From positions 1 through 17,881 of the forward strand of contig CAKTKV010000011.1 in the NCBI GenBank assembly GCA_934572355.1: a stretch of DNA of 17,881 bases, given 5' to 3'. Under the pieces are notes generated by a model that saw only the letters and a list, made by a program, of their open reading frames with translations, ran no database searches and was not told the origin of the DNA. The position numbers and the translations under genes were made by a program. The DNA is from an uncultured Oscillospiraceae bacterium (GTDB lineage Bacteria > Bacillota > Clostridia > Oscillospirales > Oscillospiraceae). Positions 1-16,448 of this stretch are shown here, piece after piece. The stretch's first letter is position 1; each line of letters starts with the position of its first letter.

Positions 1-103
1 CACTATCAGTCAGCATACCATAAGGGCGTTTTTAAGGCAAGTGGTAATTGGGGGGCGATTCGGCCGTGATCCATACAAATGGCAAATATTTGTAAAAACA
101 GCA

Positions 104-132
104 TTGACTTTTTCATATTCGCACATTATAAT
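104..132 (+). promoter_or_regulatory. Promoter of the tracrRNA
   Basis: A TTGACT -35 box (104-109) is followed after exactly 17 nt by a perfect TATAAT -10 box (127-132). The predicted start is near 137-140, immediately before the anti-repeat at 142. It is the only good sigma-70-type promoter I see upstream of cas9, so it may also feed the cas operon by read-through of the tracrRNA terminator. The boxes are seen directly; the start site is inferred. Confidence 0.85.
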
Positions 133-138
133 AAAAGT

Positions 139-231
139 GGTATTTACCATACCAAGAACTGCGCAGGTTACTATGATAAGGTCTTAGTACCGCAGAGCTC
201 TGACGCCCCGTTTCTGCGGGGCGTCATCTCT
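139..231 (+). ncRNA. tracrRNA of the type II-C CRISPR-Cas9 system
   Basis: The anti-repeat (142-177) shares 21 consecutive bases (142-162) with the plus-strand form of the CRISPR repeat. It therefore pairs perfectly with a crRNA repeat read from the minus strand. After an internal bulge (163-169), ACTATGAT at 170-177 pairs with the first eight repeat bases of the crRNA, using G-U wobbles. The tail follows the type II-C pattern: AAGG, a small GGT/ACC nexus-like hairpin (180-191), a CAGAGCTCTG palindrome (193-202), and a GC-rich terminal hairpin. In the cell it would pair with pre-crRNA, allow RNase III processing and load Cas9. The 5' and 3' ends are inferred from the promoter and terminator. 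Confidence 0.9.
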
Positions 232-233
232 TT
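201..233 (+). terminator. Intrinsic terminator and last stem-loop of the tracrRNA
   Basis: TGACGCCCC (201-209) pairs perfectly with GGGGCGTCA (218-226), and G210-C217 extends the stem to 10 bp with a 6-nt loop. It is followed by TCTCTTT. The U-tract is broken by C, so some read-through into cas9 is plausible. The cas9 start is only 43 nt downstream of the stem. Confidence 0.8.
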
Positions 234-269
234 ATATATAGACAAATACAGATAATAGGAGGCTCCGCA

Positions 270-3200
270 ATGCTTTCATACGGGATCGGTCTTGACATAG
301 GCATAGCATCTGTCGGCTGGGCCGTCGTCGCGCTTGATAACAATGAATCCCCCTACGGAATAATAAATATGGGGTCACGCATATTCGATGCTGCCGAGAA
401 TCCTAAAGACGGTGCCTCCCTCGCACTGCCGAGGCGGGAAGCGCGCAGCATGCGCCGCAGGCTGCGCCGTCACAGGCACCGGAACGAGCGTATACGCGCC
501 ATGCTCGTCAGGTGCGGTATTCTCACGCAGGACAGCCTTGATACTCTTTTTGACGGGCAGCTTGAGGATATATACGCGCTGCGCGTCCGCGCCCTGGACC
601 AAAGCGTAACGGCGGAGGAATTTGCGCGGATACTGATACACCTTTCCCAACGCAGGGGCTTCCGTTCAAACCGCAAGGCCGAAGTGTCAAAAGAGGATGG
701 GGAGCTTTTATCCGCGGTTAGCAAAAACGCTGAGCGGATGCGCGAAAACGGCTATCGCACCGCTGCCGAGATGTTTCTGAAATCGGAGGAATACGCAGAG
801 CACAAGCGCAACAAGGGAAGCAGCTATATTTCAACAGTCAGCCGCGGCATGGTCGAAGCCGAGGCAAAGATGATCTTTGCCGCACAGCGGTCATTTGGCA
901 TGCCCTTTGCCTCGGAGAAAACAGAGGAAGAGTATCTCAGCATTCTTCTGAGTCAGCGCTCCTTTGACGAAGGCCCCGGCGGAGACAGTCCATACGGCGG
1001 CAATCAGATCGAGAAGATGATAGGTAAATGTACGCTCGAGCCTGACGAGCCGCGTGCGGCAAAGGCCAGTTATTCGTTTGAATACTTCAATCTGCTGACG
1101 CGGATAAATAATATCCGTATAGTGGATGGCGGAGCGTCTGTCCCGCTCGACGACGCGCAGCGTGCGCTGATCGTTGAGCTTGCGCACAAGACCGAAGCCT
1201 TGGATTTTGCCAAGCTGCGCAAAGCGCTTGAGCTCTCGCCGTCACAGACCTTCAACCTTGTGTATTATCGCGCAGATGAAACGCAGGAAGCGTCGGAGCG
1301 CAAGCAGAAATTCAGCTTTCTGAAAGCATATCACGAGCTGCGCCGCGCATTTGATAAGCTCTCCAAGGGCTATATAAACGGCATGAGCCGTGAAAAACGC
1401 AACACGATCGCTTACGCGCTGACAGCATATAAAACGGAAAAATCGATACGCGCGGGGCTTGAAAATGCCGGGCTGACAGAGGATGAGCTGAACATAGCGC
1501 TCACAATAGGCAGCTTCTCAAAGTTCGGCCATCTCTCCGTAAAGGCCTGCGACAAGCTTATCCCTTATCTTGAGCAGGGCATGAAGTATAACGATGCCTG
1601 TGCCGCGGCAGGGTACAATTTCAAAGCCCACGACACAGAAAGCAGAACACGGCTCCTGCACATCACGCCGGAAGACCTGGAGCCGGTAACGAGTCCGGTT
1701 GTTCGCCGCGCGGTATCGCAGACAGTGAAGGTCATCAACGCGATCATCCGCGAGCGCGGATGCAGCCCCACATTCATAAACATCGAGCTTGCGCGTGAAA
1801 TGGCAAAGGATTTCCAGGAACGCGGCAGACTCAAAAAGGAAATGGACGCAAACGCCGCACAGAACGAGTGCGTTATGGAACAGATAAGGGAACTGGGCAA
1901 GGCTCAGCCCACAGGTCAGGACCTGCTGAAATATCTTCTCTGGCAGGAGCAGGACGGACGCTGCGCATATTCGCTGAAAACGATACCGCTCGAAAACCTG
2001 TTCGACGAGGGCTATGCGGAGATCGACCACATCATACCTTACAGCATCAGCTTTGACGACAGCCGCAGGAACAAGGTGCTCGTACTTTCAAAGGAGAACC
2101 GCGAAAAAAGCAACCGTCTGCCGCTGCAATATCTGAGCGGTAAACGGCGCGACGACTTCATCGTATGGGTCAACACAGCCGTGAGGGATCAGAAGAAGCG
2201 CAGAAATCTGCTCAAAGAGGAGATAAGCGACGCGGACCGCAGCAGGTTCATTGAGCGGAACCTTCAGGATACAAAGACGATGTCAAGCTTTCTCATGAAT
2301 TATCTGAACGATAATCTGGAATTTGCGCCGTCGGATAAGCGAAAGAAAAGAGTGACCGCGGTAAACGGAGCTGTCACGTCGTACCTGCGCAAGCGCTGGG
2401 GCATCAGGAAGCTCCGCGCGAACGGCGATACTCATCATGCCGTTGACGCGCTTGTCATCGCCTGCACGACTGATGGTCTGATCCAGCGCGTCAGCAGGTA
2501 CAGCAGGTGTCACGAAAGCAGCACCGTCGATGTCGACTCTGAGACCGGCGAGGTGATTGACCGCTTCCCGTACCCTTGGCCGCAGTTCCGCAAGGAGCTT
2601 GAAGGCCGCTTGACGAGCGACCCGATGAAAAATCTCCGCGAACTGAACCTGCCGCTTTACGGCGATCCTGAAGTGTCGCTGCGGCCGTTGTTTGTCTCGC
2701 GCATGCCGAGACGTAAGGTCACGGGTGCGGCGCACAAGGAAACGATCAAAAGCCCCGCCGCCCTTGATGATGGTTTCCTCGTAGTCAAAAAGCCGCTTAC
2801 CGAGCTGAAGCTCGATAAGGACGGCGAGATTGCGAACTACTATATGCCGCAGAGCGACCGCCTGCTGTATGAGGCGCTGAAGCGGCAGCTCAGCGCTCAC
2901 GGCGGAGACGGGAAAAAGGCCTTCACTGAGCCTTTCCATAAGCCGAAGAGCGACGGTACTCCCGGTCCGGTCGTCAACAAGGTGAAGATATGCGAGCCGA
3001 GCACAATGTCTGTCCCGATCCTCGGCGGCAGCGGCGCGGCCGATAACGACAGTATGGTGAGAGTAGACGTGTTCCGCGTTGAGGGCGAGGGCTACTACTT
3101 TGTCCCCATCTATGTCGCCGATACGCTGAAGTCCGAGCTTCCGAACAGAGCATGTACCCGATCATATCCGTATGACAAATGGAAAGTAATGGATGACAGG

Positions 3201-3512
3201 GATTTCATTTTCTCGCTCTATCCAAATGATCTGTTCAAAGCGACGAGCCGAAAGACGCTCACTCTGAAGCTTTCCCAGCAGGACAGCACGCTGCCGCTGG
3301 AATACTGCGTAAAATCAGAGCTTATGTACTTCAAGAGTGCGAGCATAAGCACAGCAAGCTTCACTGCGATCAATCATGACAACAGCTATAAAATAGACAG
3401 TTTAGGAATAAAGACTCTTGAGAATTTAGAAAAATACACCGTGGATGTTCTCGGTACATACCACGCCGTAGGGAAGGAAAACAGACAGTCGTTTTATAAA
3501 AAGAGAGGTTGA
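270..3512 (+). CDS. cas9: Cas9, type II-C RNA-guided DNA endonuclease
   Basis: This is the crRNA/tracrRNA-guided effector that cleaves both strands of target DNA. At 1080 aa it is in the compact II-C size range. RuvC-I has D9 in YGIGLDIGIASVGW. The arginine-rich bridge helix spans about 55-80, and a REC region covers about 85-470. RuvC-II has E506 in INIELARE. The HNH domain has D586-H587 in EIDHIIPYS and N610 in the downstream N/K-rich segment. RuvC-III has H723 and D726 in HHAVDALV. A conserved SRMPRRKVTG segment follows at 810-819, then a WED/PAM-interacting region with YYFVPIYV (942-949) and FSLYPNDL (981-988). All nuclease residues are present, so the protein should be active. The start is fixed by AGGAGG at 257-262, 7 nt before ATG. 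PAM preference cannot be read from the sequence. It heads the cas9-cas1-cas2 operon. Confidence 0.97.
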   Translation: MLSYGIGLDIGIASVGWAVVALDNNESPYGIINMGSRIFDAAENPKDGASLALPRREARSMRRRLRRHRHRNERIRAMLVRCGILTQDSLDTLFDGQLEDIYALRVRALDQSVTAEEFARILIHLSQRRGFRSNRKAEVSKEDGELLSAVSKNAERMRENGYRTAAEMFLKSEEYAEHKRNKGSSYISTVSRGMVEAEAKMIFAAQRSFGMPFASEKTEEEYLSILLSQRSFDEGPGGDSPYGGNQIEKMIGKCTLEPDEPRAAKASYSFEYFNLLTRINNIRIVDGGASVPLDDAQRALIVELAHKTEALDFAKLRKALELSPSQTFNLVYYRADETQEASERKQKFSFLKAYHELRRAFDKLSKGYINGMSREKRNTIAYALTAYKTEKSIRAGLENAGLTEDELNIALTIGSFSKFGHLSVKACDKLIPYLEQGMKYNDACAAAGYNFKAHDTESRTRLLHITPEDLEPVTSPVVRRAVSQTVKVINAIIRERGCSPTFINIELAREMAKDFQERGRLKKEMDANAAQNECVMEQIRELGKAQPTGQDLLKYLLWQEQDGRCAYSLKTIPLENLFDEGYAEIDHIIPYSISFDDSRRNKVLVLSKENREKSNRLPLQYLSGKRRDDFIVWVNTAVRDQKKRRNLLKEEISDADRSRFIERNLQDTKTMSSFLMNYLNDNLEFAPSDKRKKRVTAVNGAVTSYLRKRWGIRKLRANGDTHHAVDALVIACTTDGLIQRVSRYSRCHESSTVDVDSETGEVIDRFPYPWPQFRKELEGRLTSDPMKNLRELNLPLYGDPEVSLRPLFVSRMPRRKVTGAAHKETIKSPAALDDGFLVVKKPLTELKLDKDGEIANYYMPQSDRLLYEALKRQLSAHGGDGKKAFTEPFHKPKSDGTPGPVVNKVKICEPSTMSVPILGGSGAADNDSMVRVDVFRVEGEGYYFVPIYVADTLKSELPNRACTRSYPYDKWKVMDDRDFIFSLYPNDLFKATSRKTLTLKLSQQDSTLPLEYCVKSELMYFKSASISTASFTAINHDNSYKIDSLGIKTLENLEKYTVDVLGTYHAVGKENRQSFYKKRG

Positions 3513-3514
3513 AC

Positions 3515-4414
3515 ATGGCGTTTCGAAACATTATTGTCGAAAATCCTGCGCATATCTCCGTGAAGAACAGCCAGCTTGTGATCCGTACCGATACTGAGCA
3601 CAGCGCCGCGCTTGAGGATATCTCTGCGCTGCTGCTCGAAAACCGGCAGACAACAATAACAGCAGCCGCACTCTCCGCTCTTGGAGAGTGCGGCTGCTGC
3701 GTTTTTACCTGCGACGAAAAGCATTTACCCTGCACAGTCCTCACTCCATTCATGCAGCACAGCCGTCAGGCTGCTGTCATCGAAAAGCAGCTTGCGGCGG
3801 GTGAACCGCTGAAAAAGCGGATGTGGCAGGCCATAGTCAAGGCAAAGATCACCAATCAGGCGCTTTGCCTGAAAAACTGCGGCAACGAGCATGACTGCCA
3901 GACCTTAAAAGCGATGGCAGAGCGTGTCCGTTCGGGCGACGTGGGGAACGTAGAAGCTGCCGCGGCACGCTTTTATTTCCCCGTTCTCTTCGGGGATGGT
4001 TTCACTCGCGGGACTGACTGCGTATACAATGCCGCGCTCAATTACGGCTATGCCATCATCAGGGGCAGCATCGCCCGCTCCCTGGCGGTACACGGTCTGC
4101 TGCCCGTTTTCGGAATACACCATGAAAGCTTGATGAACGCATTTAACCTTGCCGATGACCTGATAGAGCCTTTCCGTCCGCTGATCGATCTGCTTGTATT
4201 CTCCTCTTTCCGTCCCGAGGATGAGCTTACTCCCGACAAAAAGCGCCTTCTTTTCAGCACGCTGAATCTGGACATTCTTTCCGATTCCCAGCACCACAGC
4301 ACCGCATACGCGATAGACAGGCTCGTGCAGAGCCTGCTGCGTTCATTGGATGAAAAGCAGCCCCGGCTTCTCCTTCCAGAGCTGCTTGCGCTTGAGCAGC
4401 ACCGGTATGAATAA
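3515..4414 (+). CDS. cas1: Cas1, CRISPR adaptation integrase (type II)
   Basis: Cas1 is the metal-dependent integrase that, with Cas2, inserts new spacers at the array. The protein is 299 aa, normal for type II Cas1. The expected metal ligands are visible: E147 in GNVEAAAARFYF, the His pair H202/H203 in GIHHES, and E218 in DLIEPFRP. An in-frame TTG exists at 3509. I chose ATG 3515 because GAGAGG (3502-3507) is then 7 nt upstream and the product begins MAFRNIIVEN, as expected for the family. It begins 2 nt after the cas9 stop, so the two are cotranscribed. A terminator-like 17-bp hairpin lies within the first fifth of the coding sequence (see 3660-3706). Confidence 0.96.
   Translation: MAFRNIIVENPAHISVKNSQLVIRTDTEHSAALEDISALLLENRQTTITAAALSALGECGCCVFTCDEKHLPCTVLTPFMQHSRQAAVIEKQLAAGEPLKKRMWQAIVKAKITNQALCLKNCGNEHDCQTLKAMAERVRSGDVGNVEAAAARFYFPVLFGDGFTRGTDCVYNAALNYGYAIIRGSIARSLAVHGLLPVFGIHHESLMNAFNLADDLIEPFRPLIDLLVFSSFRPEDELTPDKKRLLFSTLNLDILSDSQHHSTAYAIDRLVQSLLRSLDEKQPRLLLPELLALEQHRYE
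3660..3706 (+). terminator. Terminator-like hairpin inside cas1
   Basis: Bases 3660-3676 and 3683-3699 are perfect reverse complements: a GC-rich 17-bp stem with the 6-nt loop GCTCTT. They are followed by CG and five Ts (3702-3706). This has the full form of an intrinsic terminator within an actively translated frame. The codons spell AALSALGECGC, a region where type II Cas1 proteins usually carry a similar Ala/Ser-Ala-Leu pattern, so part of the symmetry may be chance. Function as an attenuator is inferred; translating ribosomes would normally melt the hairpin. Confidence 0.5.
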
Positions 4415-4727
4415 GTTTATGAGAATGATCGTATTTTTTGATCTGCCTGTGCAGACAAAGACGCAGCGGAGAGAGGCCACAAAATTCAGAAACTTCCTGC
4501 TCAAGGACGGTTATCACATGCTGCAATACTCCGTATACGCCCGCGTGTGCAACGGGACTGACGCTGTGGACAAGCACCGCGAGCGTCTGCGTAACCGTCT
4601 GCCGAAAAACGGAGCTATCCGGATGCTCGTCATTACCGAGAAGCAGTACGAGAGTATAGAAATTCTGCTGGGTGAGCTCACCCCAGCGGACGAGCCGTTC
4701 GAGAGCGAGGTTCTCACCGTTTTTTGA
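4407..4727 (+). CDS. cas2: Cas2, CRISPR adaptation protein
   Basis: Cas2 is the small ferredoxin-fold partner of Cas1 in the spacer-integration complex. The start ATG at 4407 overlaps the cas1 end by 8 nt, giving a 106-aa protein that begins MNKFMRMIVFFDLPV. D12 in FFDLPV is the conserved Asp of the family. The middle region (LKDGYHMLQYSVYARVC) and the C-terminal LVITEKQY segment match type II Cas2. An in-frame upstream ATG at 4350 would add 19 residues coded inside cas1 and is rejected. Overlap with cas1 implies translational coupling. No csn2 or cas4 follows, consistent with subtype II-C. Confidence 0.95.
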   Translation: MNKFMRMIVFFDLPVQTKTQRREATKFRNFLLKDGYHMLQYSVYARVCNGTDAVDKHRERLRNRLPKNGAIRMLVITEKQYESIEILLGELTPADEPFESEVLTVF

Positions 4728-4774
4728 AAAACCGGAATTTTTGCATTTTTGCCGCGGCGGCGCAGACTTTTTAT

Positions 4775-4816
4775 AAAAAAAGGAACCCTGAAACCATTGA
4801 TTTCAGGGTTCCTTTT
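4775..4816. terminator. Bidirectional terminator between cas2 and the CRISPR array
   Basis: AAAAGGAACCCTGAAA (4778-4793) pairs perfectly with its reverse complement at 4801-4816: a 16-bp stem with a 7-nt loop. The seven As at 4775-4781 become a TTTTTTT tract on the minus strand, the better direction. On the plus strand the hairpin ends in TTTTCC. It lies 48 nt after the cas2 stop and 9 nt before the first repeat. It can end the cas operon and, more strongly, an array transcript read from the minus strand. Confidence 0.85.
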
Positions 4817-4825
4817 CCGCAGTCA

Positions 4826-5391
4826 GATTTACCATACCAAGAACTGCTAGGGAACTACAACCACCGACCAAGGCATTGTCAAGGCCGTCAAGATTTACCA
4901 TACCAAGAACTGCTAGGGAACTACAACTACCACCGGTGCGCATAGTTGATCTCGACTGATTTACCATACCAAGAACTGCTAGGGAACTACAACTACCAAA
5001 TACGGCAAAGACAGTAATCATATGATTTACCATACCAAGAACTGCTAGGGAACTACAACGTGTCGCGGCTGCGCACTGGAGCGCTGTGCGATTTACCATA
5101 CCAAGAACTGCTAGGGAACTACAACTTCGGGCACATTCTTGAGCACCGATGCTAAAGATTTACCATACCAAGAACTGCTAGGGAACTACAACTATGCACT
5201 CAAGTTGTTCACAAGACGAAACGATTTACCATACCAAGAACTGCTAGGGAACTACAACAGCTGACCACGGTTAGATGTTAACATACGGGATTTACCATAC
5301 CAAGAACTGCTAGGGAACTACAACAGCTGAAACAAGAGGCCGTCGCCGTTGAGCTGTTTCACCATACCAAAAACTGCGAAGAGACTACAAC
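4826..5391 (-). CRISPR. CRISPR array, nine repeats and eight spacers
   Basis: Eight identical 36-nt repeats start at 4826, 4892, 4958, 5024, 5090, 5157, 5223 and 5289, plus a ninth diverged copy at 5356-5391. On the plus strand each begins GATTTACC and ends ACTACAAC. Spacers are 30 nt, except the fifth (5126-5156) and eighth (5325-5355), which are 31. The minus strand is assigned because only minus-strand repeats (GTTGTAGTTCCC..., a type II-C style) pair with the plus-strand tracrRNA. Each minus-strand repeat also has a possible internal promoter, TTGTAG then TATGGT 18 nt later, like the repeat-borne promoters known in Neisseria II-C arrays; this is inference. By eye, no spacer matches another part of the window. 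Confidence 0.97.
5356..5391 (-). repeat. Degenerate terminal CRISPR repeat
   Basis: This copy differs from the other eight at seven positions (2, 5, 16, 23, 25, 27 and 28, counted on the plus strand) but keeps the ACCATACCAA core and the ACTACAAC end. Diverged terminal repeats usually mark the oldest, leader-distal end of an array. Here that end lies away from cas2 but at the upstream end of the transcription direction required by the tracrRNA. Confidence 0.9.
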
Positions 5392-5422
5392 AATGAGGCT
5401 AATTGCCTACACCCTGCTGCAC

Positions 5423-5620
5423 TCATTCCTCAATGACCTCAAGCTCGGATTCCACACAACCGTACAGTTTCCAGCTATCATCGTCGCCGTAACCGCCGGG
5501 CGTTCCTTTTTCGTCGGATTCAACTTCAAAGCGCTCTTTGCCCCTTACTGTGCCTATATCAACCACGATGCCGGTAATGCCCGTCTCTTTTATTCTCACA
5601 TGCGTAAATAGTTCTATCAT
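5423..5620 (-). CDS. Small acidic KOW/SH3-like hypothetical protein
   Basis: A 65-aa acidic protein. It begins MIELFTHVRIKETGITGIVV, a beta-rich pattern like small KOW/SH3-barrel proteins (DUF4926-type), and ends in an acidic tail. The start at 5620 is chosen because AAGGCGGG lies just upstream on the minus strand; a longer frame to 5695 would run through the promoter. The promoter is at 5642-5670. The gene faces the array and stops only 31 nt before its terminal repeat, with no obvious terminator between, so its transcript could run into the array in the crRNA-sense direction. I see no evidence that it acts in CRISPR immunity; similar small proteins are generic in Firmicutes. Function is unknown. 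Confidence 0.7.
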   Translation of the reverse strand: MIELFTHVRIKETGITGIVVDIGTVRGKERFEVESDEKGTPGGYGDDDSWKLYGCVESELEVIEE

Positions 5621-5641
5621 TTTCTGCCCGCCTTTTTTAAT

Positions 5642-5670
5642 AGTATACACTATCGTTCCCCGTTTGGCAA
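5642..5670 (-). promoter_or_regulatory. Promoter of the small minus-strand gene
   Basis: Read on the minus strand, TTGCCA (5665-5670) is followed after 17 nt by TATACT (5642-5647). It lies 22 nt upstream of the start codon at 5620. It is the nearest clear promoter that could read through the small gene into the minus-strand CRISPR array. Confidence 0.65.
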
Positions 5671-5713
5671 GCCGTCCCGCTGCGCAGGGCGGCAACTTCC
5701 CCCGCCCCGGCTA

Positions 5714-5741
5714 TTGACACGGCGCAAAAACCTGCTATAAT
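5714..5741 (+). promoter_or_regulatory. Promoter of the metK riboswitch transcript
   Basis: A perfect TTGACA (5714-5719) and perfect TATAAT (5736-5741) are separated by 16 nt, with a TG extended -10 at 5733-5734. The start is predicted near 5748, about 13 nt before the aptamer. This is a strong constitutive promoter whose output is set by the downstream riboswitch. Confidence 0.9.
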
Positions 5742-5760
5742 ATCACAGTACAATTGAACA

Positions 5761-5896
5761 CCTTATCAAGAGCGGTGGAGGGAACGGCCCTGTGAAGCCC
5801 GGCAACCTGCGTATGCAAGGTGCCAAATCCGGCGGTGATACGAAAGATGAGGCTTTTATGCAGACTTTATGCTCCGTCGGTTGACGGAGCTTTTTT
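5761..5896 (+). promoter_or_regulatory. SAM-I (S-box) riboswitch controlling metK
   Basis: The aptamer (5761-5852) shows the S-box core: P1 strands CCTTATC (5761-5767) and GATGAGG (5846-5852), then AAGAGCGGTGGAGGGA, GGCCC, GAAGCCCGGCAACC and GGTGCCAAATCC. The expression platform is explicit. GATGAGGC (5846-5853) can pair with GCTCCGTC (5871-5878), with one mismatch and two wobbles, as antiterminator. Otherwise GCTCCGTC forms the terminator stem. By the established mechanism, bound S-adenosylmethionine stabilises P1 and favours termination, so SAM shuts off its own synthase. Confidence 0.95.
5871..5896 (+). terminator. Riboswitch-controlled terminator upstream of metK
   Basis: GCTCCGTC (5871-5878) and GACGGAGC (5883-5890) form a perfect 8-bp stem with a GGTT loop, followed by six Ts (5891-5896). 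The 5' strand is shared with the antiterminator. Confidence 0.93.
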
Positions 5897-5944
5897 ATCG
5901 CTCTTGACCCAAAGTTCTGTAAAAATACAAAGGAGGATATATAA

Positions 5945-7126
5945 ATGAGCCATTACTTTTTCACATCCGAATCCGTGACCGAGGGGCATCCCGATAAGAT
6001 CTGCGACCAGATATCCGACGCTGTGCTCGACGCCATCCTTGAGAAGGACCCGCAGGGGCGCGTCGCCTGCGAGACCACCGTCTCCACCGGCCTTGTCCAT
6101 ATCATGGGCGAGATAAGCACCGAGTGCTATGTCGACATTCCCCGCATCGCGCGCGAGGTCATCCGCGATATCGGCTATGACCGCGCAAAATACGGCTTTG
6201 ACTGCGACACCTGCGGCATCATCACGAACATCGACGAGCAGTCCGGCGACATCGCAATGGGCGTTGACAAGTCCCTTGAGAACAAAAACGGCGAATATGA
6301 CGAGCTCCAAAACGGCGCCGGCGACCAGGGCATGATGTTCGGCTACGCCTGCGACGAGACCCCGGAGCTTATGCCGATGGCCATCTCCCTGTCCCATAAG
6401 CTCGCAAAGAAGCTCACCGCCGTCAGGAAATCCGGCGAACTCACCTATCTCAGACCCGACGGCAAGACCCAGGTCACCGTTGAGTACGACGAGCAGCGCC
6501 ATCCCGTCAGGGTCGACACCGTCGTTATCTCCACGCAGCACTCCCCCGACGTCTCACTTGAGCAGATCAGAGCCGACATGATCGAGAAGGTCATCAAGAC
6601 CACTGTTCCCGCGGGGCTGCTGGATGAGAACACCAAGTACCTCGTCAACCCCACCGGCCGCTTTGTCATCGGCGGGCCGCAGGGCGACTCCGGCCTCACC
6701 GGGCGCAAGATCATCGTCGACACCTACGGCGGCAGCGCTCCCCACGGCGGCGGCGCTTTCTCCGGCAAGGACCCGACAAAGGTCGACCGCAGCGCAGCCT
6801 ACGCCGCGCGCTACGCGGCAAAGAACGTCGTCGCGGCTGGCCTTGCGAAGCGCTGCCAGATAGAGCTTGCCTACGCGATAGGCATGGCGGCTCCCGTGTC
6901 CGTCCTCGTTGAGACCTTCGGCACCGGCACGGTCTCCGATGCCGTCCTGTCCGAAGCGGTGCAGAAGGTGTTCGACCTGCGCCCGAGCGCCATCATCCGT
7001 GACCTCGACCTGCGCCGTCCTATCTACCGCAAGCTCGCCGCCTACGGCCATATGGGGCGCGAAGACCTCGGCGTGAGCTGGGAAAAGACCGACCGCGTTC
7101 AGGCTCTGCTCGATGCGGTAAAGTGA
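5945..7126 (+). CDS. metK: S-adenosylmethionine synthetase
   Basis: MetK makes S-adenosylmethionine from methionine and ATP in the cytoplasm and supplies methyl groups for the cell. The 393-aa length is standard. Hallmarks are the N-terminal [35 protein letters not shown] near residue 120, [13 protein letters not shown] near 240, and [19 protein letters not shown] near 265. The last contains the P-loop-like GGGAFSGKD that binds the phosphates. AAAGGAGG precedes ATG 5945. It is controlled by the SAM-I riboswitch immediately upstream and appears monocistronic, ending before the hairpin at 7176-7210. Confidence 0.98.
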
Positions 7127-7175
7127 CAGCGCAATGAAATAAATAACAACGCATAAAATTCTAATCGTCATACTC

Positions 7176-7210
7176 TCCCCCGGTGCGGCTCATTTATCCG
7201 TGCCGGGGGA
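7176..7210 (+). terminator. Hairpin after metK
   Basis: TCCCCCGGTGCGG (7176-7188) pairs with CCGTGCCGGGGGA (7198-7210) as a 13-bp stem with two wobbles and a 9-nt loop. It is followed by CTTCTAT, not a clean U-tract, so it may be a weak terminator or an RNA-stabilising 3' end. Confidence 0.6.
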
Positions 7211-7263
7211 CTTCTATACGCATTTGCAGATTACACATAAGTTTCAGCCGTCTTTAACGGAAA

Positions 7264-7281
7264 TTTGGCGCGAGCGCCAAA
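7264..7281. other. Short palindrome upstream of the hydrolase promoter
   Basis: TTTGGCG (7264-7270) and CGCCAAA (7275-7281) are inverted around CGAG. The element lies 36 nt upstream of the -35 box at 7317. It could be an operator for a dimeric regulator or a small hairpin. No regulator gene is nearby and its role is unknown. Confidence 0.35.
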
Positions 7282-7316
7282 ATGAATAAATATTCGTGTT
7301 TTTCGGAATATATGTG

Positions 7317-7345
7317 TTGACTTTTCCTCGCCGCGGCCTTATGAT
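7317..7345 (+). promoter_or_regulatory. Promoter of the MBL-fold hydrolase gene
   Basis: TTGACT (7317-7322) and TATGAT (7340-7345) are spaced by 17 nt. They lie about 37 nt upstream of the start codon, leaving room for a short leader with the AAGGAGGG ribosome-binding site. Confidence 0.75.
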
Positions 7346-7381
7346 TACGCCATTCAAGTATTCTTTTAAGGAGGGTTCGGT

Positions 7382-8209
7382 ATGGCACATGCAGCAGATT
7401 TTTCCGCATTCCCGGTCATCGGCGCGGAAAGCCGCTGGTTCACCGTGTGGCAGATCGCGCCCAATGTAAAGGCTATATTTGAGCCGCATCATTTTCAGGA
7501 AGTGATAAGCTACCTGATTGAGGGCGAGACCGGCGCAGTGCTTTTCGATTCCGGTATGGGCATCGGGAACATGAGGGCGCTGGTGGAGTCGCTCACGGAT
7601 AAGCCCATAACGCTTGTCTGCTCGCACGGTCACTTCGATCATGTCGGCGGGGCATGGCAGTTCGACGGGGCGCATAAGCTCTGCACTCCTGATTCCGTCG
7701 CTGAAGCGGCTGAGGGCTTTTCACTCCCGGAGGACGATGAGAACCGTTCCCTCGCGGCCTTCTCCATTGTCGGTACGCTGTGGTTCGACCCTAAGACCTT
7801 CCGCGTGAAGCCCTATAAGGTGATCCCCGCGGAGGAGGGCGAGGTCTTTGACCTCGGCGGCAGACGGCTGCGCGTTGTCGCCGCGCCGGGGCACTCTGAC
7901 GACGGCATGATGCTTGCCGACGATGAGAACCGTCTGCTCTTCACCGGCGACACGGTGTACCCCGGTCCGCTTTATGCGCACCTTTCCGGGGAGCACGGCG
8001 CGGAGGTCTACCGCAGGACGCTCGAAAAGCTCGCGCCGGAGTTCGGCAGCTACACTCTCCTGTGCTCGCACAACTCCCCCGTGATGGAGGGCGCGGCGCT
8101 CGCGGAGATGGCCGAAGCATTCAGCGCGGTCGAGCGCGGGGACGTGTCCGGATATGAATATATGCGGCACCGACGATATGATTTTGACGGATTTTCTATT
8201 GTAATGTAA
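7382..8209 (+). CDS. Metallo-beta-lactamase-fold hydrolase
   Basis: A 275-aa protein of the MBL superfamily with the metal-binding signature HGHFDH (about residues 80-85), an upstream ...AVLFDSGMG strand, a second metal-ligand His in APGHSDDGMM (about 171), and the Asp of LLFTGDTVYPGP (about 191). A late His in CSHNSPV completes the usual ligand set. Such proteins hydrolyse thioesters, lactones or other esters with two bound zinc or iron ions; the substrate cannot be told. No signal peptide is seen, so it should be cytoplasmic. AAGGAGGG precedes ATG 7382. It has its own promoter and stops 53 nt before the ABC lipoprotein gene without an obvious terminator, so some read-through is possible. 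Confidence 0.9.
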   Translation: MAHAADFSAFPVIGAESRWFTVWQIAPNVKAIFEPHHFQEVISYLIEGETGAVLFDSGMGIGNMRALVESLTDKPITLVCSHGHFDHVGGAWQFDGAHKLCTPDSVAEAAEGFSLPEDDENRSLAAFSIVGTLWFDPKTFRVKPYKVIPAEEGEVFDLGGRRLRVVAAPGHSDDGMMLADDENRLLFTGDTVYPGPLYAHLSGEHGAEVYRRTLEKLAPEFGSYTLLCSHNSPVMEGAALAEMAEAFSAVERGDVSGYEYMRHRRYDFDGFSIVM

Positions 8210-8262
8210 GTTTATACTGTGCTCTAATGCACACTGTCCAAAAATTAAAACGGAGGAAAAAT

Positions 8263-9036
8263 GTGAAGAAATTTGTTGCTTTTATACTTGCGCTCGTTAT
8301 GATGCTTTCTCTCGCCGCCTGCGGTTCGAGCCAGAGCGCCGAAAAGACCTGGGAAGATGAACTCGGCACTGCAGGTCTCCTGCGTGTCGGCATCGCTACC
8401 GACTATCCCCCCTACGAGAGCTACGACGCTGACGGCAACGTCGTCGGCCTTGACGCCGATATCGCCCAGCTCATCGCCGACAAGCTCGGCGTAAAGCTCG
8501 AGCTCGTCCCCATGTCCTTTGACACCATCGTCTCCGCCGTCGCCGCCGGCACGGTCGACATGGGCATCTCCTGCTTCTCCTACAACGAGGAGCGCGCAAA
8601 GAGCGTCCTCTTCTCCAATACCTACATGACCTCCGCACAGGCCTGCTTCACCTCCACCAAGTACGGCGTTGACACCATGGAAGACCTCAAGGACGGCGTC
8701 GTCTGCGCGGGCAACGGCACGACCGGTATGGACGTTGCGGAATCCCTCAAGGATCAGTACGGCTTCACCACTCAGGCCGGTGAGATCGCCATCATCACCG
8801 AGGCTATCCGCTCCGGCGCTGTGAAGGGCTGCATCACCGAGCTGTGCGTTGCGCAGAGCGTGAGCGACAATAACCCCGGCGAGTTCCAGATCATTGCCGA
8901 TAACCTCTCCGAGGAGCAGATCAAGGCCGTCGCGAACCTCAACAGCACCAAGCTCATTGAGGAAGTCAACAAGATCATCGACGAGTTCACCGCGAGCGAC
9001 GATTACAGCGCCCTCGTCGTGAAATGGTTCGGCTGA
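8263..9036 (+). CDS. Polar amino-acid-type ABC transporter substrate-binding lipoprotein
   Basis: This is the extracellular solute receptor of the importer encoded by the next two genes. GTG 8263 is chosen: GGAGG at 8252-8256 is 6 nt upstream, and the product then starts with a standard lipoprotein signal MKKFVAFILALVMM and lipobox LAAC with Cys20. The mature part has the SBP_bac_3 pattern: LLRVGIATDYPPYESYD, then GLDADIAQLIADKLG and VDMGISCFSYNEERAKSVLFS. At 257 aa it is the usual length. An ATG at 8227 is in frame but lies before the ribosome-binding site. A TATACT at 8213-8218 may be its -10 box, without a good -35. The bound solute could be an amino acid or a related polar compound; the operon partners make an unusual ligand possible. 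Confidence 0.92.
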   Translation: MKKFVAFILALVMMLSLAACGSSQSAEKTWEDELGTAGLLRVGIATDYPPYESYDADGNVVGLDADIAQLIADKLGVKLELVPMSFDTIVSAVAAGTVDMGISCFSYNEERAKSVLFSNTYMTSAQACFTSTKYGVDTMEDLKDGVVCAGNGTTGMDVAESLKDQYGFTTQAGEIAIITEAIRSGAVKGCITELCVAQSVSDNNPGEFQIIADNLSEEQIKAVANLNSTKLIEEVNKIIDEFTASDDYSALVVKWFG

Positions 9037-9068
9037 TCCTGCTAAGCAGATAATCTAAGAAAATACGC

Positions 9069-9093
9069 AAAGGGGGCCTCCGCCCCCTTTTGC
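9069..9093 (+). terminator. Intra-operon terminator after the lipoprotein gene
   Basis: AAAGGGGGC (9069-9077) and GCCCCCTTT (9082-9090) form a perfect 9-bp stem with a CTCC loop, followed by one more T and GC. It lies 32 nt after the lipoprotein stop and 26 nt before the permease start. Partial termination here would give more lipoprotein than membrane subunits, a common arrangement in importer operons. Confidence 0.75.
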
Positions 9094-9116
9094 ACGTTTA
9101 GTTAGGAATAATTACA

Positions 9117-9797
9117 ATGAATGTTTTTCAAAGGATACTCACCGCGGAAAACCTGCTCTTCATGCTCAAGGGCGCGGGCTACTCGCTGCTGGTCGCCATC
9201 GCGGCGCTGGCCGGCGGCTCGATCCTCGCGCTGCTTGCCGCTATGGCAAAGATGAGCAAGAGCAAGATCCTGCGCGTTATCGCAAACGTCTATGTTGAAG
9301 TCATCCGCGGCACGCCGATGATGCTTCAGATACTCATACTCTATCTCTGCGGCCCTGTCATCACAAGGACGCTGTTCCACTATGTCTTCACGCCGAATCC
9401 GCTCGTCGTCGGCACGATCGCCATCGGCATAAACTCCGGCGCGTATACCTCGGAGCTGTTCCGCTCGGCTATCCAGTCCATCGACAAGGGGCAGTGGGAG
9501 GCCGCCAAGACCATCGGCCTCAACTACTGGCAGACGATGAAGGAGATCATTCTCCCGCAGGCCTTCAAGCGCGTGCTTCCGCCGTACATAAATGAGTTCA
9601 TCGTGCTTATAAAGGACTCATCCCTGCTCGCGTCGATCGGCGCGGTGGAGCTGCTGCACGGCGCGCAGGTGCTCGGCGCGAACTACTATAACTACATGAT
9701 CCCGCTGCTGTGCGCGACGGTCATGTACCTTGTCATGACGATGACCATTTCGCACTTTGCGCGGAAACTGGAGAGGAGGCTGGCTCAGAGTGATTAA
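9117..9797 (+). CDS. Polar amino-acid-type ABC transporter permease
   Basis: This is the membrane subunit of the importer, 226 aa, HisM/GlnP family. Hydrophobic spans are visible near residues 15-40, 65-80, 95-110 and 180-215. The EAA loop that docks on the ATPase is at about 123-145: [20 protein letters not shown]. The early [12 protein letters not shown] segment is typical of the family. ATG 9117 has a weak AGGAAT upstream, so translation may be modest. The end overlaps the ATPase start by 8 nt. It probably works as a homodimer, since only one permease gene is present. Confidence 0.93.
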
Positions 9798-10515
9798 CGC
9801 GGTGCATCTTAAAAAGTCCTTCGGCAGCGTCAAGGCCGTGGACGATGTGTCCTTGCACATTGAAAAGGGCGAGGTGATCTGCATCATCGGACCGTCCGGT
9901 TCCGGCAAGAGCACCCTCATCCGCTGCCTGCACGGGCTGGAAACGCCCGACAGCGGCGAGCTCTATATAGACGGGCAGAAAATAGATTTCACCAAAAACA
10001 ACAGCAAGGCCTTCTCCCGCGTGGGCTTTGTGTTCCAGCTGTTCAATCTCTTCCCGCACAAGACCGTGCTCGAAAACCTCACGCTCGGCCCGGTAAAGGC
10101 TTTCAACGTTCCGAAGGCTGAGGCCGAGGAGAAAGCGCACAAGCTGCTTGCCCGCGTTGGGCTCGACGACAAGGCCGACGCCTACCCCAACCAGCTCTCA
10201 GGCGGCCAGAAGCAGCGTGTGGCTATCGCCCGTGCGCTGTGCCAGAACCCGGAGGTCATCCTCTTTGACGAGCCCACCTCCGCGCTCGACCCCGAAATGA
10301 TCGGCGAGGTGCTCAACGTCATGAAGGAGCTTGCGGACGAGGGCATGACGCTTGCCGTCGTGACGCATGAGATGGGCTTTGCCCGCAAGGTCGCGACGCG
10401 CGTGATCTTCTTCGACGGCGGGCGCATCGTTGAGGAGGGCACACCTGACGAGATATTCGACCATCCGAAAAGCGACCGCCTCAAGCTGTTCCTTTCGCAG
10501 GTCATACACATGTGA
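9790..10515 (+). CDS. Polar amino-acid-type ABC transporter ATP-binding protein
   Basis: This is the cytoplasmic motor of the importer. GTG 9790 gives 241 aa, the normal size for the GlnQ/HisP family, with AGGAGG at 9774-9779; an in-frame ATG at 9757 would add 11 residues inside the permease gene. Walker A is GPSGSGKST (about 36-44), the Q-loop lies in [10 protein letters not shown], the signature is [15 protein letters not shown], Walker B is [12 protein letters not shown], and the switch His is in VTHEM. All motifs are intact. The 8-nt overlap with the permease and 4-nt overlap with the next gene indicate one translationally coupled operon. Confidence 0.95.
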
Positions 10516-11462
10516 GCGCTATGGAATACATTGTAGCCGGTTACAACATGCTGACGGATATCACCTATTCTGACGGCAGCACCATAGAAAACACCCCCGG
10601 CGGCTCGTTCTATTCCGCCTCCGGGGTCAAGTTCTGGCGCGACAGCGTCGCCTACGTCGGCACTGCCGGGCCGGATTTTGAGCGCTGGTACGGGAAATGG
10701 TTCAGTGACAATGCCATCGACTGCCGCGTGAAGCCCTGTCTGCCGAAAACGCTCAGGTACACTCTCTCCTACGCCGCAAACGGTATATGGTCGGAGGAGT
10801 GCAGCTACGGCGAGGAATACGAGGCCATGGCAAAGGACGTCGGGCGCATTACCCCGGAAATGCTCGGCGAGTGCGTGGACGACAGCACTCGCGGCATCTA
10901 CCTTGAGGCGAGCCTTTCGGCAAAGATCGCCGACCATTTTGCCGAGGTCAAATCACTTATCCCGAACGGCGTTTTCCTCTGGGAAATCAACGGCGACGAC
11001 CTGCGCGATCCCGCAAAGCGGGACGCCATCGAGGAGCGCATCGCCATTGCCGACGCATTCTCACTTAACCTTGACGAAGCTCAGGGCTTCTTCGGCACGG
11101 ATGACGGGGACGTCATCCTGCAAAGTCTCTCAGCCTACGGCAAGCCCTGCTTCTTCCGTCTCGGGGAGAAGGGCTCTGGCATCGTGCGCCCCGAGGGCGC
11201 GGTGTTCGGCCGCTCCGTCGGGACAGAGAAGAGCGTCGACCCCACGGGCTGCGGCAACTGCTCTACCGCCGCGGCGATGATCGGCCTTGCCGAAGCGCTG
11301 CCGGATGAAATGACCGTCGCCATGGCAAATATCGCGGCGGGACACTGCGCGGCGCAGTTCGGCCCCTGGCCGTGCGTGACGCGGGAGAGCCGCGCCGAGG
11401 CGTATGCGGAGCTTGACAGCTATCTTGCCGCCGCGCCTTTTGTTTACGGGAGGCTTTTATGA
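10512..11462 (+). CDS. PfkB-fold carbohydrate kinase-like protein, atypical catalytic motif
   Basis: A 316-aa ribokinase/PfkB-fold protein. Family marks are the N-terminal [11 protein letters not shown] glycine motif (28-38), [12 protein letters not shown] (184-195), [10 protein letters not shown] (216-225) and the ATP-site motif DPTGCGN (243-249). In most PfkB kinases the last motif reads DTTGAGD, whose final Asp is the catalytic base; here it is N249. The protein may therefore be a subfamily with altered chemistry, or a sugar/nucleoside-binding pseudokinase. GTG 10512 overlaps the ATPase stop by 4 nt (GTGA); ATG 10521 is an alternative. Its place between an importer and a BtpA-like enzyme suggests that it acts on the imported compound. 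The substrate is unknown. Confidence 0.85.
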
Positions 11463-12196
11463 AAGCATTCAGCAAAGTATTCAAAGAAACCAAACCCGTC
11501 ATCGGCGTCATCCACCTCAAGGGGACGGACGAGGCTGACATCCGCGAGCGCGCCAAAAGGGAGATCGAGCTCTACCTCAACGGCGGGCTCGACGGCATTA
11601 TAGTTGAGGATTATTTCGGAACGTACCCGAACCTTGTCTGGGCGCTCGGTTATCTGCAGGAGCAGAAGCTCGGTATCCCCTACGGCGTCAACTGCCTGAA
11701 CTTCGATTCGCTCTGCTTCAAGCTCGCGCGGGATTTCTCCTGCGATTTTCTCCAGCTCGATTCCGTCGTCGGACATGTGAAGCCGCGCGACGAAGCGACG
11801 CTCAACGCTTTCTTCGCCCTTGAGCGCCCCATCTGCGATGCTCTCGTCCTCGGCGGAGTGCGCTTCAAGTACCAGCCGGTGCTCTCGGAGCACACTGTGG
11901 AGGAGGACATCGAGACGGCGAAGGGTCGCTGCGACGCGATATGCGTGACCGGCGACGGCACCGGCATGGAAGCGCCCATCGATAAGATCCGCCGCTTCAA
12001 GCTCGCCTGCGGGGACACGCCGCTTGTTATATGCTCGGGCGTGAACGTGGATAACTGCGCAGAGCAGCTCGCCGTCGCGGACGGCGCGGTGGTCGGCAGC
12101 TTCTTCAAGGACACCGGTAAAGACACCGGCGACGTCTCCGCAGAAAAGATCGAGCTTCTCATGCAGCAGGTGCGCGCGCTGCGCGGAAAGCTATGA
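11459..12196 (+). CDS. BtpA/SgcQ-family TIM-barrel protein
   Basis: A 245-aa protein with the BtpA pattern: KPVIGVIHLKGTDE at the first strand, GGLDGIIVEDYFGTYP (about 42-57), PYGVNCLNFDS (about 74-84), and the C-terminal phosphate-site-like GVNVDNCAEQLAVADGAVVGS. The family was named after a cyanobacterial photosystem I biogenesis factor, but in Firmicutes its members occur in sugar and nucleoside operons and look like (beta/alpha)8 enzymes for phosphorylated sugars. ATG 11459 overlaps the kinase-like gene stop (ATGA), so the two are translationally coupled. It is a candidate to act on the product of the preceding protein. The reaction is unknown. Confidence 0.85.
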   Translation: MKAFSKVFKETKPVIGVIHLKGTDEADIRERAKREIELYLNGGLDGIIVEDYFGTYPNLVWALGYLQEQKLGIPYGVNCLNFDSLCFKLARDFSCDFLQLDSVVGHVKPRDEATLNAFFALERPICDALVLGGVRFKYQPVLSEHTVEEDIETAKGRCDAICVTGDGTGMEAPIDKIRRFKLACGDTPLVICSGVNVDNCAEQLAVADGAVVGSFFKDTGKDTGDVSAEKIELLMQQVRALRGKL

Positions 12197-13560
12197 GCGC
12201 CGTGGAGGATATCAAAGCCGCCTCCTCGGAGCTGCTCACGGCTCCCCCGGCAAAGGCGCTGCTGCGCTTTGCCCTGCCGCTTATGGCGGGCGGCGCGTGC
12301 CAGCAGATATACGCGCTGACCGACGCCACGGTCGTCGGGCGTGTGCTCGGCGTGAACGCGCTTTCGGCGCTCGGCGCATGCGACCTGCTCGTCTGGCTTG
12401 TCGGCGCGTCCCTCGGCGCTTTCACTCAGGGCTTTTCGATCCGTCTCTCCACCGCCTTCGGCGCGGGAGACAGGGAGCTTTTCTGCCGCACCGCTGCGAC
12501 CTCGCTGCTGCTCGCGCTCGTCTCGGGGCTTATCCTCTGCATCGCGACGGAGCTTTGCGCGCCGCTTATTCTCCACGCCATGCAGGTGCAGCCGGAGATA
12601 TGGGACTATGCCCTCATATACCTGCGCACGATCTACGCGGGGATACCGCTTCTGATGCTATACCATTTCTTCTCAGGCGTGCTGCGCTCCGTGGGCGACA
12701 GCCGCGCGCCGCTGCGCGCGATGCTCATATCCTCGGTGCTGAACATCGTCCTTGATATAGTGCTGGTCGCGTTTCTGCACCGCGGCATATTCGGCGCTGC
12801 CGCCGCGACGGTCTTTTCGCAGGGCGTCTCGGCGCTCTACGCTGGGCTTTGCATGCGTAAGCTCATCGCCCCGGCAGACAAAGCCGCGCTGCGCTATGAC
12901 GGTGCTCTGACCGCGCCGATGCTGCGCTTCTCCGCGCTCATGACGGGGCAGGTCGCGGTGAGCGCGGTCGGCGGGCTCGTGACCCAAGCCGTGGTGAACA
13001 CCTACCCTATCCCGTACATCGCGGGCTACACCGCAATGAACAAGCTATACGGCCTGCTCGAATTCGCCGCGCTCTCCTACGGCTACGCGATCACGACCTA
13101 CACCGGGCAGAACTACGGCGCGGGGAATATCCACCGCGTCCGCCGCGGGCTCATCGTCGGCGAGGGGCTTGCCCTCGCGACCTCCGCGCTCTTCTCGCTG
13201 CTGATCTTCACGGCGGGGCGGGCGCTGGTCATGGTCTTTCTTTCCGGTGACGCTGCGGATGTCGCCGCGGCCTGCGCGGTCGGGCTGAAGTTCCTGCGCA
13301 TCATGGGCGTCGGAATGTCGATGCTGTACACGGTGCACTTTATGCGCTCTTTCGTGCAGGGGCTCGGCCACGCCGGGCTTGCCACGGCAGCCAGCGTATG
13401 CGAGCTGGCCGCGCGCCTTGCTTCGGTCTTCCTCCTCGGCGCGGTGCTCGGCACGGACTGTGTGCTCTATGCCGAGACGCTTGCATGGATCGCCGGGGCT
13501 GTCATCACGACGATCGGCGCGGTATACTACGCCCGGCGCTTGAAAGCAGACGCAGAATAA
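12193..13560 (+). CDS. MATE-family multidrug/metabolite exporter
   Basis: A 455-aa integral membrane protein, the usual MATE length, with about 12 hydrophobic spans in two related halves. The N-terminal half shows LLRFALPLMAGGACQQIYALTDATVVGRVLG, written here only to mark the typical MatE opening. The second half begins near residue 235 with MLRFSALMTGQVAVSAVGG. MATE proteins export cationic drugs or metabolites in exchange for Na+ or H+. ATG 12193 overlaps the BtpA-like gene stop (ATGA). Coupling to an importer operon suggests export of a related product or protection from a toxic analogue, but this is inference. Confidence 0.93.
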   Translation: MSAVEDIKAASSELLTAPPAKALLRFALPLMAGGACQQIYALTDATVVGRVLGVNALSALGACDLLVWLVGASLGAFTQGFSIRLSTAFGAGDRELFCRTAATSLLLALVSGLILCIATELCAPLILHAMQVQPEIWDYALIYLRTIYAGIPLLMLYHFFSGVLRSVGDSRAPLRAMLISSVLNIVLDIVLVAFLHRGIFGAAAATVFSQGVSALYAGLCMRKLIAPADKAALRYDGALTAPMLRFSALMTGQVAVSAVGGLVTQAVVNTYPIPYIAGYTAMNKLYGLLEFAALSYGYAITTYTGQNYGAGNIHRVRRGLIVGEGLALATSALFSLLIFTAGRALVMVFLSGDAADVAAACAVGLKFLRIMGVGMSMLYTVHFMRSFVQGLGHAGLATAASVCELAARLASVFLLGAVLGTDCVLYAETLAWIAGAVITTIGAVYYARRLKADAE

Positions 13561-13566
13561 ACGTTA

Positions 13567-13603
13567 AAGAACGCGGACAGGCTTATGTCCGCGTTCTTGT
13601 TTT
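13567..13603. terminator. Terminator between the MATE gene and the convergent peptidase gene
   Basis: AAGAACGCGGACA (13567-13579) pairs perfectly with TGTCCGCGTTCTT (13586-13598) around GGCTTA, followed by GTTTT. The 13-bp stem ends the six-gene operon. On the minus strand it ends in CTTTAACG, so it is weaker for the peptidase gene, whose stop codon (13602-13604) touches it. Confidence 0.88.
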
Positions 13604-14879: not shown

Positions 14880-14975
14880 CTCTTCACCACCTGTAGAGTT
14901 TTCCTCCCATGTATATGCGCGCGGCGCGGCGGTATTCCCCGGCAAAGTGCACAATTTTTGACCTCGATTTTTGAG

Positions 14976-15004
14976 TTGTAATATCAGGGCACGGCCTGTA
15001 TAAT
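14976..15004 (+). promoter_or_regulatory. Promoter upstream of the MsmX/UgpC-type ATPase gene
   Basis: TTGTAA (14976-14981) and a perfect TATAAT (14999-15004) are spaced by 17 nt. The 321-nt gap between the two divergent genes (14880-15200) holds this promoter, a perfect AAGGAGG at 15079-15085 with no usable start just after it, a small CCCTGA/TCAGGG hairpin (15096-15110) and a 37-codon open frame (15076-15189). The leader before the ATPase start would be about 190 nt. I found no clear promoter for the minus-strand peptidase gene. Confidence 0.75.
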
Positions 15005-15075
15005 CATTTACAGTGGACGATAAGTCCTATTTGACTGCGTGCGCGGCACTCCACACAATGCCGCGCATAGCTTTA

Positions 15076-15189
15076 ATGAAGGAGGAATTTATTTTCCCTG
15101 AGGCTCAGGGTGCGGCAGCGTGGAGATCTGTCGTAATGCGGGTGGCGATGCCCCTGCGAGTGCGTCTGAGGCGGAGGCCCGGCGCATAG
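15076..15189 (+). CDS. Possible leader small ORF before the ATPase gene
   Basis: ATG 15076 opens a 37-codon frame starting MKEEFIFPEAQG and ending in an Arg-rich tail at TAG 15187-15189, 11 nt before the ATPase ATG. Its own ATG lacks a ribosome-binding site, because the AAGGAGG lies inside it (15079-15085); a start at ATT 15091 would use that site. It may be non-coding. No family is recognised. Confidence 0.2.
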   Translation: MKEEFIFPEAQGAAAWRSVVMRVAMPLRVRLRRRPGA

Positions 15190-15200
15190 AGCCGGAAAGA

Positions 15201-16385: not shown

Positions 16386-16404
16386 GGTAAGGAATAATAA
16401 TATT

Positions 16405-16438
16405 GGCTCTGCACCGAAAAACGGTGCAGAGCCTTTTT
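16405..16438 (+). terminator. Terminator of the MsmX/UgpC-type gene
   Basis: GGCTCTGCACCG (16405-16416) pairs perfectly with CGGTGCAGAGCC (16422-16433) around AAAAA, followed by TTTTT (16434-16438). It is a textbook intrinsic terminator 20 nt after the stop codon. Confidence 0.95.
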
Positions 16439-16448
16439 ATCATCCGCC

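Follow-up and report, generated by a model that had tools for sequence, protein, structure and literature searches.

A compact type II-C CRISPR-Cas9 locus from an Oscillospiraceae bacterium, with a predicted attenuator hairpin inside cas1

We describe a type II-C CRISPR-Cas9 locus (CRISPR, clustered regularly interspaced short palindromic repeats; Cas, CRISPR-associated) at positions 104-5391 of a 17,881-nucleotide (nt) stretch of DNA from an uncultured Oscillospiraceae bacterium (GenBank assembly GCA_934572355.1, contig CAKTKV010000011.1, positions 1 to 17,881 of the forward strand), hereafter the window. It consists, in this order, of a predicted gene for the trans-activating CRISPR RNA (tracrRNA), cas9, cas1, cas2 and the repeat-spacer array, and at the level of gene content its sequence supports a complete and compact type II-C system. 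We propose, with a probability of roughly 0.85 for the joint reading, that the locus likely works as dual-RNA-guided, DNA-cutting immunity in which cas1-cas2 would be held in check by a hairpin in the cas1 messenger RNA (mRNA).

Content and class of the locus

The core of the locus is made up of the following features (crRNA, CRISPR RNA; aa, amino acids).

104-132, plus strand: sigma-70-like promoter for the predicted tracrRNA, with TTGACT (104-109), 17 nt and TATAAT (127-132), matching the consensus at 11 of 12 positions
139-230, plus strand: predicted tracrRNA, its start and end likewise predicted, with an anti-repeat from about 141, a nexus and a terminator stem at 201-226
270-3512, plus strand: cas9, type II-C like, 1080 aa (828 bits to TIGR01865, whose cut-off is 100)
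3515-4414, plus strand: cas1, 299 aa (TIGR03639, 295 bits)
4407-4727, plus strand: cas2, 106 aa (TIGR01573, 82 bits)
4826-5324, minus strand (crRNA sense): eight identical repeats of 36 nt, separated by seven spacers of 30-31 nt

This arrangement is not a product of chance: all family scores lie far over the respective cut-offs, and an alignment of 12 rows shows the tracrRNA to be conserved, with 8 of the 17 pairs of its consensus structure changed on both sides and a covarying terminator. The anti-repeat matches the 5' part of the repeat at 21 of 22 nt, and because the tracrRNA co-folds with the repeat as read on the minus strand, we take minus to be the crRNA sense. D9, E506, H587, N610, H723 and D726 of Cas9 are all present and invariant across 20 aligned rows, the window included, as are E147, H203, D215 and E218 of Cas1 in 13 of 13 rows. 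We assign the locus to type II-C because it holds only the Cas9, Cas1 and Cas2 families, because, of the named structures, ThermoCas9, GeoCas9, BlCas9 and NmeCas9 lie closest to its compact Cas9, and because the crRNA runs antisense to the cas genes. Models from NCBIfam, Pfam and PADLOC call Cas9, Cas1 and Cas2 and found neither csn2 nor cas4 between cas2 and the array; only 269 bases precede cas9 in the window.

A sequence-only reading of this DNA had named a promoter with a recognisable tracrRNA, a 1080-aa Cas9 with the same six catalytic residues intact, Cas1 with its metal ligands, Cas2 and a type II-C class, all of which are borne out by the promoter and anti-repeat matches, the co-fold, the family scores, the invariant columns, the nearest named structures and the crRNA orientation. 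Its further statement that all the parts required for function can be seen is reasonable at the level of sequence, with expression and cleavage remaining predictions. The eight identical repeats that it reported are present as well, and a ninth, diverged repeat lying within its end at 5391 went uncounted. Array polarity, this diverged repeat, the cas1 hairpin and a pairing between the array flank and a repeat are absent from that reading.

Relatives were compared as loci labelled L0xx, with 25 cas1 genes in the survey of the cas1 hairpin and 25 loci in those of the array flank and the distal repeat, the window among them each time. In a sister group (L003 near 12516, L006 near 11076 and L054 near 9059, minus strand), the tracrRNA gene lies beyond the array in the crRNA sense, and not before cas9.

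Cas9 and its nearest relatives

In a sequence search of PDB, the best match to Cas9 is 21dz (891 bits over residues 3-1078), followed by 9ar4 and the GeoCas9 entries, and a search with just the 280 C-terminal residues ranks them alike, with 21dz first. The 1154-aa Cas9 of 21dz shares 139 of 268 aligned C-terminal residues with the window Cas9 (52%); it is longer by virtue of insertions and is not among the matches listed in the fold searches. Full-length likeness, the C-terminal part included, extends to the type II-C proteins ThermoCas9 (9ar4, 44% identity), GeoCas9 (8uza, 8uzb, 8jtj and 8jtr, 41-43%) and BlCas9 (8x5v, 41%), identities that are too low for a protospacer-adjacent motif (PAM) to be transferred to the window Cas9. 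An AlphaFold model (predicted local distance difference test score 81.8, predicted template modelling score only 0.54) resembles BlCas9, HpaCas9, NmeCas9, ThermoCas9 and GeoCas9 in fold searches that included Foldseek. The comparison with characterised orthologues, advised on the strength of the sequence alone, thus found no near-identical protein in PDB (41-44% for the named proteins, 52% for the C-terminal part of 21dz). Characterised Cas9s that lack structures were sought in papers only, and no characterised close relative was found in a literature search for II-C Cas9 from Oscillospir*, which matched no paper, or in the text passages, as distinct from the tables, of the 2020 Cas9 ortholog catalogue (PMC7606464).

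Among genomes, the nearest records to the locus come from metagenome-assembled genomes (MAGs) of Clostridiales and Oscillospiraceae and from Subdoligranulum. The nearest Cas9 belongs to the Clostridiales MAG SUG1290 (L001/L047), being 76% identical over its 963 available residues, with further relatives at about 58-65%; over the aligned stretch, the SUG1290 tracrRNA is identical from base 3 through to the end. Its contig stops within cas9 and hence offers no cas1, cas2 or array for comparison. The Subdoligranulum variabile locus OY725839.1 (L009), deposited as a plasmid, shares the order tracrRNA-cas9-cas1-cas2-array (Cas9 57% identical), a diverged distal repeat and the flank pairing, and differs in having a cas1 without the hairpin. 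A search of viral contigs for Cas9 confirmed nothing. Another relative, L063, is a 6.8-kb contig (MT837457.1) deposited as 'Bacteriophage sp.', which may be a bacterial fragment.

On this evidence, the locus is a new member of type II-C, and the RNA features described below make it a variant.

A hairpin within cas1

The cas1 gene contains two features that together suggest a regulatory element.

3660-3699, plus strand: cas1-internal mRNA hairpin of 18 base pairs (bp) with a 4-nt loop, predicted attenuator of cas1-cas2 (terminator scan, shuffles, covariation)
3702-3706, plus strand: run of five T two bases past the hairpin, in codons for V-F (7 of 10 hairpin loci have runs of at least four T)

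In ten of 25 cas1 genes tested (the window, L048, L049, L050, L051, L058, L089, L090, L091 and L092), no more than 3 of 300 synonymous-codon shuffles of the gene fold as stably as the hairpin stretch, and fourteen of the other fifteen are less extreme (shuffle fractions 0.023 to 0.95). When the ten are aligned, 89.4% of cells are paired and 7 of the 18 pairs change on both sides, a count matched by 7 of 500 shuffles; covariation scores 0.240, a value that none of 500 shuffles (0.127 +- 0.020) attains, and slid versions score at most 0.095. In the mRNA sense, the 15 inner pairs comprise 136 Watson-Crick, 11 G-U, 1 A-C and 2 other cells, and it is from the excess of G-U over A-C that we take the mRNA strand to do the pairing. 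The same asymmetry disfavours a DNA palindrome. A dispersed repeat is ruled out, as the motif is confined to cas1 in five of six genomes searched, the sixth (G001) having a contig that ends within cas9. Within the window's operon, the hairpin is the strongest of 239 scanned segments (z -5.3), and among seven loci scanned in this way it ranks top in the window, L050, L089, L048 and L092 (the last two narrowly) and not in L009 or L003.

Our preferred interpretation, drawn from sequence with less confidence than we have in the locus as a whole, is that the hairpin is an attenuator of cas1-cas2, with polymerase pausing as an alternative to attenuation. A run of at least four T within the next two codons, starting 2-5 nt past the stem, is found in 7 of the 10 hairpin loci and in none of 13 others (L002 and L062 not being among these), which points to termination or pausing. 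Several findings weigh against an attenuator. The U-run is lacking or short in L048, L091 and L051 (the last with a broken cas1 and no run of at least four T), and with its offset from the stem it does not make a textbook terminator. Ten of the 18 stem pairs are invariant, and the number of further pair types is equalled by 24 of 500 shuffles. Finally, L096, the fifteenth of the remaining cas1 genes and outside the hairpin clade, has a different and unrelated 11-bp hairpin at about codons 49-57 (0 of 300 shuffles as low); its position within cas1 is nearly the same, a possible case of convergence.

One option is that the stem is a processing site, where RNase III or another nuclease cleaves and so parts a stable cas9 mRNA from an unstable cas1-cas2 mRNA, termination playing no role. 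A perfect-stem scan gives 15-18 bp in six loci, with a single interior flaw in L090 and L091; such stems would suit a nuclease of this kind, and both the G-U cells, mostly in the mRNA sense, and the patchy U-run are consistent with it; the restriction of the T runs to hairpin loci argues the other way, and we consider processing unlikely, if worth weighing.

Another is that the hairpin is no functional RNA at all and reflects codon use and amino-acid constraint in an Ala/Gly/Cys-rich stretch, with a palindrome inherited from one ancestor. In favour, a 23-row Cas1 tree, which leaves out the incomplete L051 and L058, places all eight full-length carriers in a single clade with support 97/97, ten of the 18 pairs are invariant, and shared ancestry inflates the shuffle tests. 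Yet the synonymous shuffles, the double-sided changes and the G-U asymmetry all speak for an RNA, and the carriers' Cas1 proteins are just 61-67% identical to that of the window, so that we regard this explanation as improbable. No report of a cas1-internal hairpin was found in searches of the open-licence PMC library.

The adaptation genes have been lost recurrently in relatives: in four of them, L006, L054, L055 and L051, cas1-cas2 is broken or deleted, and Cas9 and an array are retained. Most of the pair is deleted at 10292-10456 of L006, 8230-8370 of L054 and 8324-8506 of L055 (all in the orientation with cas9 on the plus strand), the remaining open frame in L006 and L054 fusing the start of Cas1 to the end of Cas2; in L051 (7302-7863, same orientation) the region has a stop and a deletion, and cas1 is broken. 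Assembly errors possible in these records aside, such losses could mean that the lineage is shedding adaptation and that the window is an intact snapshot of a decaying locus. We hold this to be very improbable, since cas1 and cas2 of the window are intact with conserved ligands, and its eight identical repeats suggest recent turnover.

Array polarity and the extra repeat

Beyond the eight regular repeats, the array continues as follows.

5325-5355, minus strand: eighth spacer, 31 nt, probably the oldest (orientation from the repeat:tracrRNA co-fold)
5356-5391, minus strand: ninth, diverged 'extra' repeat with 7 mismatches, first in the crRNA sense (repeat comparison)
5392-5416, minus strand: would-be guide of an extraneous crRNA, folding on itself at -7.1 kcal/mol

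Passages of three papers (PMC12080349, PMC12638026, PMC13187072) describe type II-C arrays as taking up new spacers at the last repeat, as having repeats that can carry promoters, and as beginning with an oldest, first-transcribed 'extra' repeat that is often mutated. The polarity predicted for the window fits this pattern, the diverged repeat being cas-distal and first in the crRNA sense. Across the survey, the cas-distal repeat has at least two mismatches in 13 of 25 loci, the window included; in the other 12 it has 0-1 mismatch or is irregular, or the array meets the contig end.

It was considered whether the mutations of the extra repeat would block an extraneous crRNA. This is unsupported in the window, where the extra repeat pairs with the tracrRNA at -43.0 kcal/mol against -45.9 kcal/mol for a regular repeat, a small difference that tells against such mutations as the means of blocking. 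The would-be guide's own fold explains such a block better, and it resembles another mechanism against extraneous crRNA in passages of the cited literature. As to possible promoters within the repeats, two findings are unfavourable for the window: its repeat end reads TGGTAAATC, where the other seven of eight aligned rows have an extended -10, TGGTATAA(T/C), and a scan for sigma-70-like promoters called none within the array.

Two further observations concern the surroundings of arrays. L053 has further repeat copies past its regular array (9416-10420), spaced by about 250 bases or more. In the window, a small open reading frame without a Pfam or PADLOC match (5426-5617, minus strand) lies directly upstream of the array in the crRNA sense; it is accompanied by a promoter-like site (5670-5642, minus strand), from which a transcript could enter the array.

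The array end and its flank

Between cas2 and the newest repeat lie a putative terminator and a short segment that may pair with that repeat.

4778-4816, no strand assigned: hairpin of 16 bp between cas2 and array, predicted to terminate transcription in both directions (stem scans)
4819-4824, minus strand: flank arm, GACTGC in the minus sense, able to pair with the newest repeat (6 bp only in the window)
4842-4847, minus strand: repeat arm, GCAGTT in the minus sense, in the cas2-proximal repeat, pairing with the flank arm

In 11 of 25 loci, the window included, a strict scan finds perfect stems of at least 14 bp adjoining the array. By eye, a flawed stem is seen in seven more (L050, L052, L053, L005, L089, L090 and L093), the case is ambiguous in L091, and none is clear in L066 and L094-L098.

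The short segment separating the terminator from the newest repeat complements the middle of that repeat. Over the 25 loci, the best helix of a flank with its own repeat scores 6.34, against 4.94 +- 0.22 with permuted partners (p 5e-5; 20,000 permutations never score so high), and a control using the 16 nt that come next gives p 0.76; a first test on 15 loci had given p about 1e-4. Scores of at least 6.5 occur in 15 of 25 loci (against 11% of shuffled flanks) and of at most 5 in nine (L007, L005, L053, L093, L094, L095, L002, L052 and L066). In the register of the window, shared by eight loci, 98.2% of cells pair, 4 of 7 pairs are changed on both sides and covariation is 0.510 against 0.245 +- 0.054 (0 of 500 shuffles); in a second register, in five loci, the figures are 97.5%, 2 of 8 and 0.400 against 0.187 (5 of 500 shuffles). 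The signal, strong in many relatives, is weak in the window itself: the window helix of 6 bp scores 5.5, which 27% of shuffled flanks reach, and RNAfold favours a different fold there. The test in the plus sense is equally significant (5.68 against 4.34), leaving the strand unfixed.

What might the pairing serve? It could act in spacer acquisition, as a leader mark in DNA or RNA read by Cas1-Cas2, and not in the control of crRNA. It is located exactly at the acquisition end expected for type II-C, where acquisition goes via the last repeat according to passages of PMC12080349, and the equal strength of the plus sense agrees with a mark in DNA or RNA. Conversely, the pairing is kept in L006, L054 and L055, which have lost most of cas1-cas2, and for this reason we lean towards a role in crRNA, unless those losses are recent. 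The non-Watson-Crick cells of the helix cores in the minus sense, namely 12 G-U cells, 8 of which share a fixed position, and 2 of other kinds including an A-C, likewise argue against acquisition, although A-C cells also occur at the helix edges (6 in register 20) and the one core A-C cell, in L055, further weakens this evidence on strand. Overall, acquisition is a serious contender that we place somewhat short of even odds.

As described in passages of PMC13187072 and PMC12080349, leader-repeat hairpins of types II-A and VI are similar in that a sequence next to the array folds back on the adjacent repeat, and differ in that they pair the extra repeat that makes the extraneous crRNA. In the window locus, the paired repeat is instead the last, newest and cas-proximal one, which follows a real spacer and so is not spacer-less. 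No report of such a 3' flank hairpin was found in searches of the open-licence PMC library. A small RNA made from the last repeat's promoter and acting on the repeats was dropped by reasoning alone, as its expected start would remove much of the arm.

Spacer targets and the PAM

In type II-C systems, the PAM is usually found some 4-8 nt 3' of the protospacer. The proposal that protospacers of the spacers might disclose the PAM came to nothing, with no credible target in IMG/VR, phage records or 149 genomes. Exact searches of IMG/VR with the repeat-proximal 21 nt of seven of the eight spacers (all but that at 5325-5355) found no match, the array matched only three of 50,697 phage records (E about 6, none credible), and one spacer had no match with up to 3 mismatches in 149 related genomes, all of which tells against our view of the locus as working immunity. 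The arrays of three relatives likewise gave no target matches. Against the rest of the window, the best spacer match is 20 of 31 nt, and there is no self-target.

Other elements of the window

Two further RNA elements lie outside the locus: at 5760-5853, a SAM (S-adenosylmethionine) riboswitch precedes a metK-like gene, and at 15031-15206, a malK-I RNA precedes a malK-like ATP-binding cassette (ABC) gene.

Proposed working and significance

In light of these features, how might the locus work? The pre-crRNA would run minus-ward from 5391 to the terminator at 4778-4816, the tracrRNA would pair with each repeat, and Cas9 would load the resulting duplex. Spacer insertion by Cas1-Cas2 would take place at the cas2-proximal repeat, in line with reports on type II-C. 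With less confidence, we suggest that RNA polymerase or ribosomes meet the hairpin and U-run about 150 nt into cas1, such that fewer transcripts would reach cas2 and memory formation would be kept low relative to Cas9. Also with less confidence, the flank next to the newest repeat may fold onto that repeat in competition with the tracrRNA, an effect that would be weak in the window.

Taken together, the two hairpins might amount to RNA control at two points, in which the cas1 attenuator keeps Cas1-Cas2 scarce and the repeat-tracking hairpin with its terminator holds back the newest crRNA in opposition to the tracrRNA. We consider this combined scheme unlikely and offer it tentatively; were it true, spacers would be acquired sparingly and each armed slowly, limiting self-targeting.

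The locus adds a compact Cas9 to a thinly sampled branch, whose nearest named solved relatives are only 41-44% identical. Both hairpins bear on the questions of how low spacer acquisition is controlled and how type II-C systems handle the newest spacer. Should the hairpin in cas1 be an attenuator, a core adaptation gene would carry within it a regulatory element that is invisible to genome annotation.

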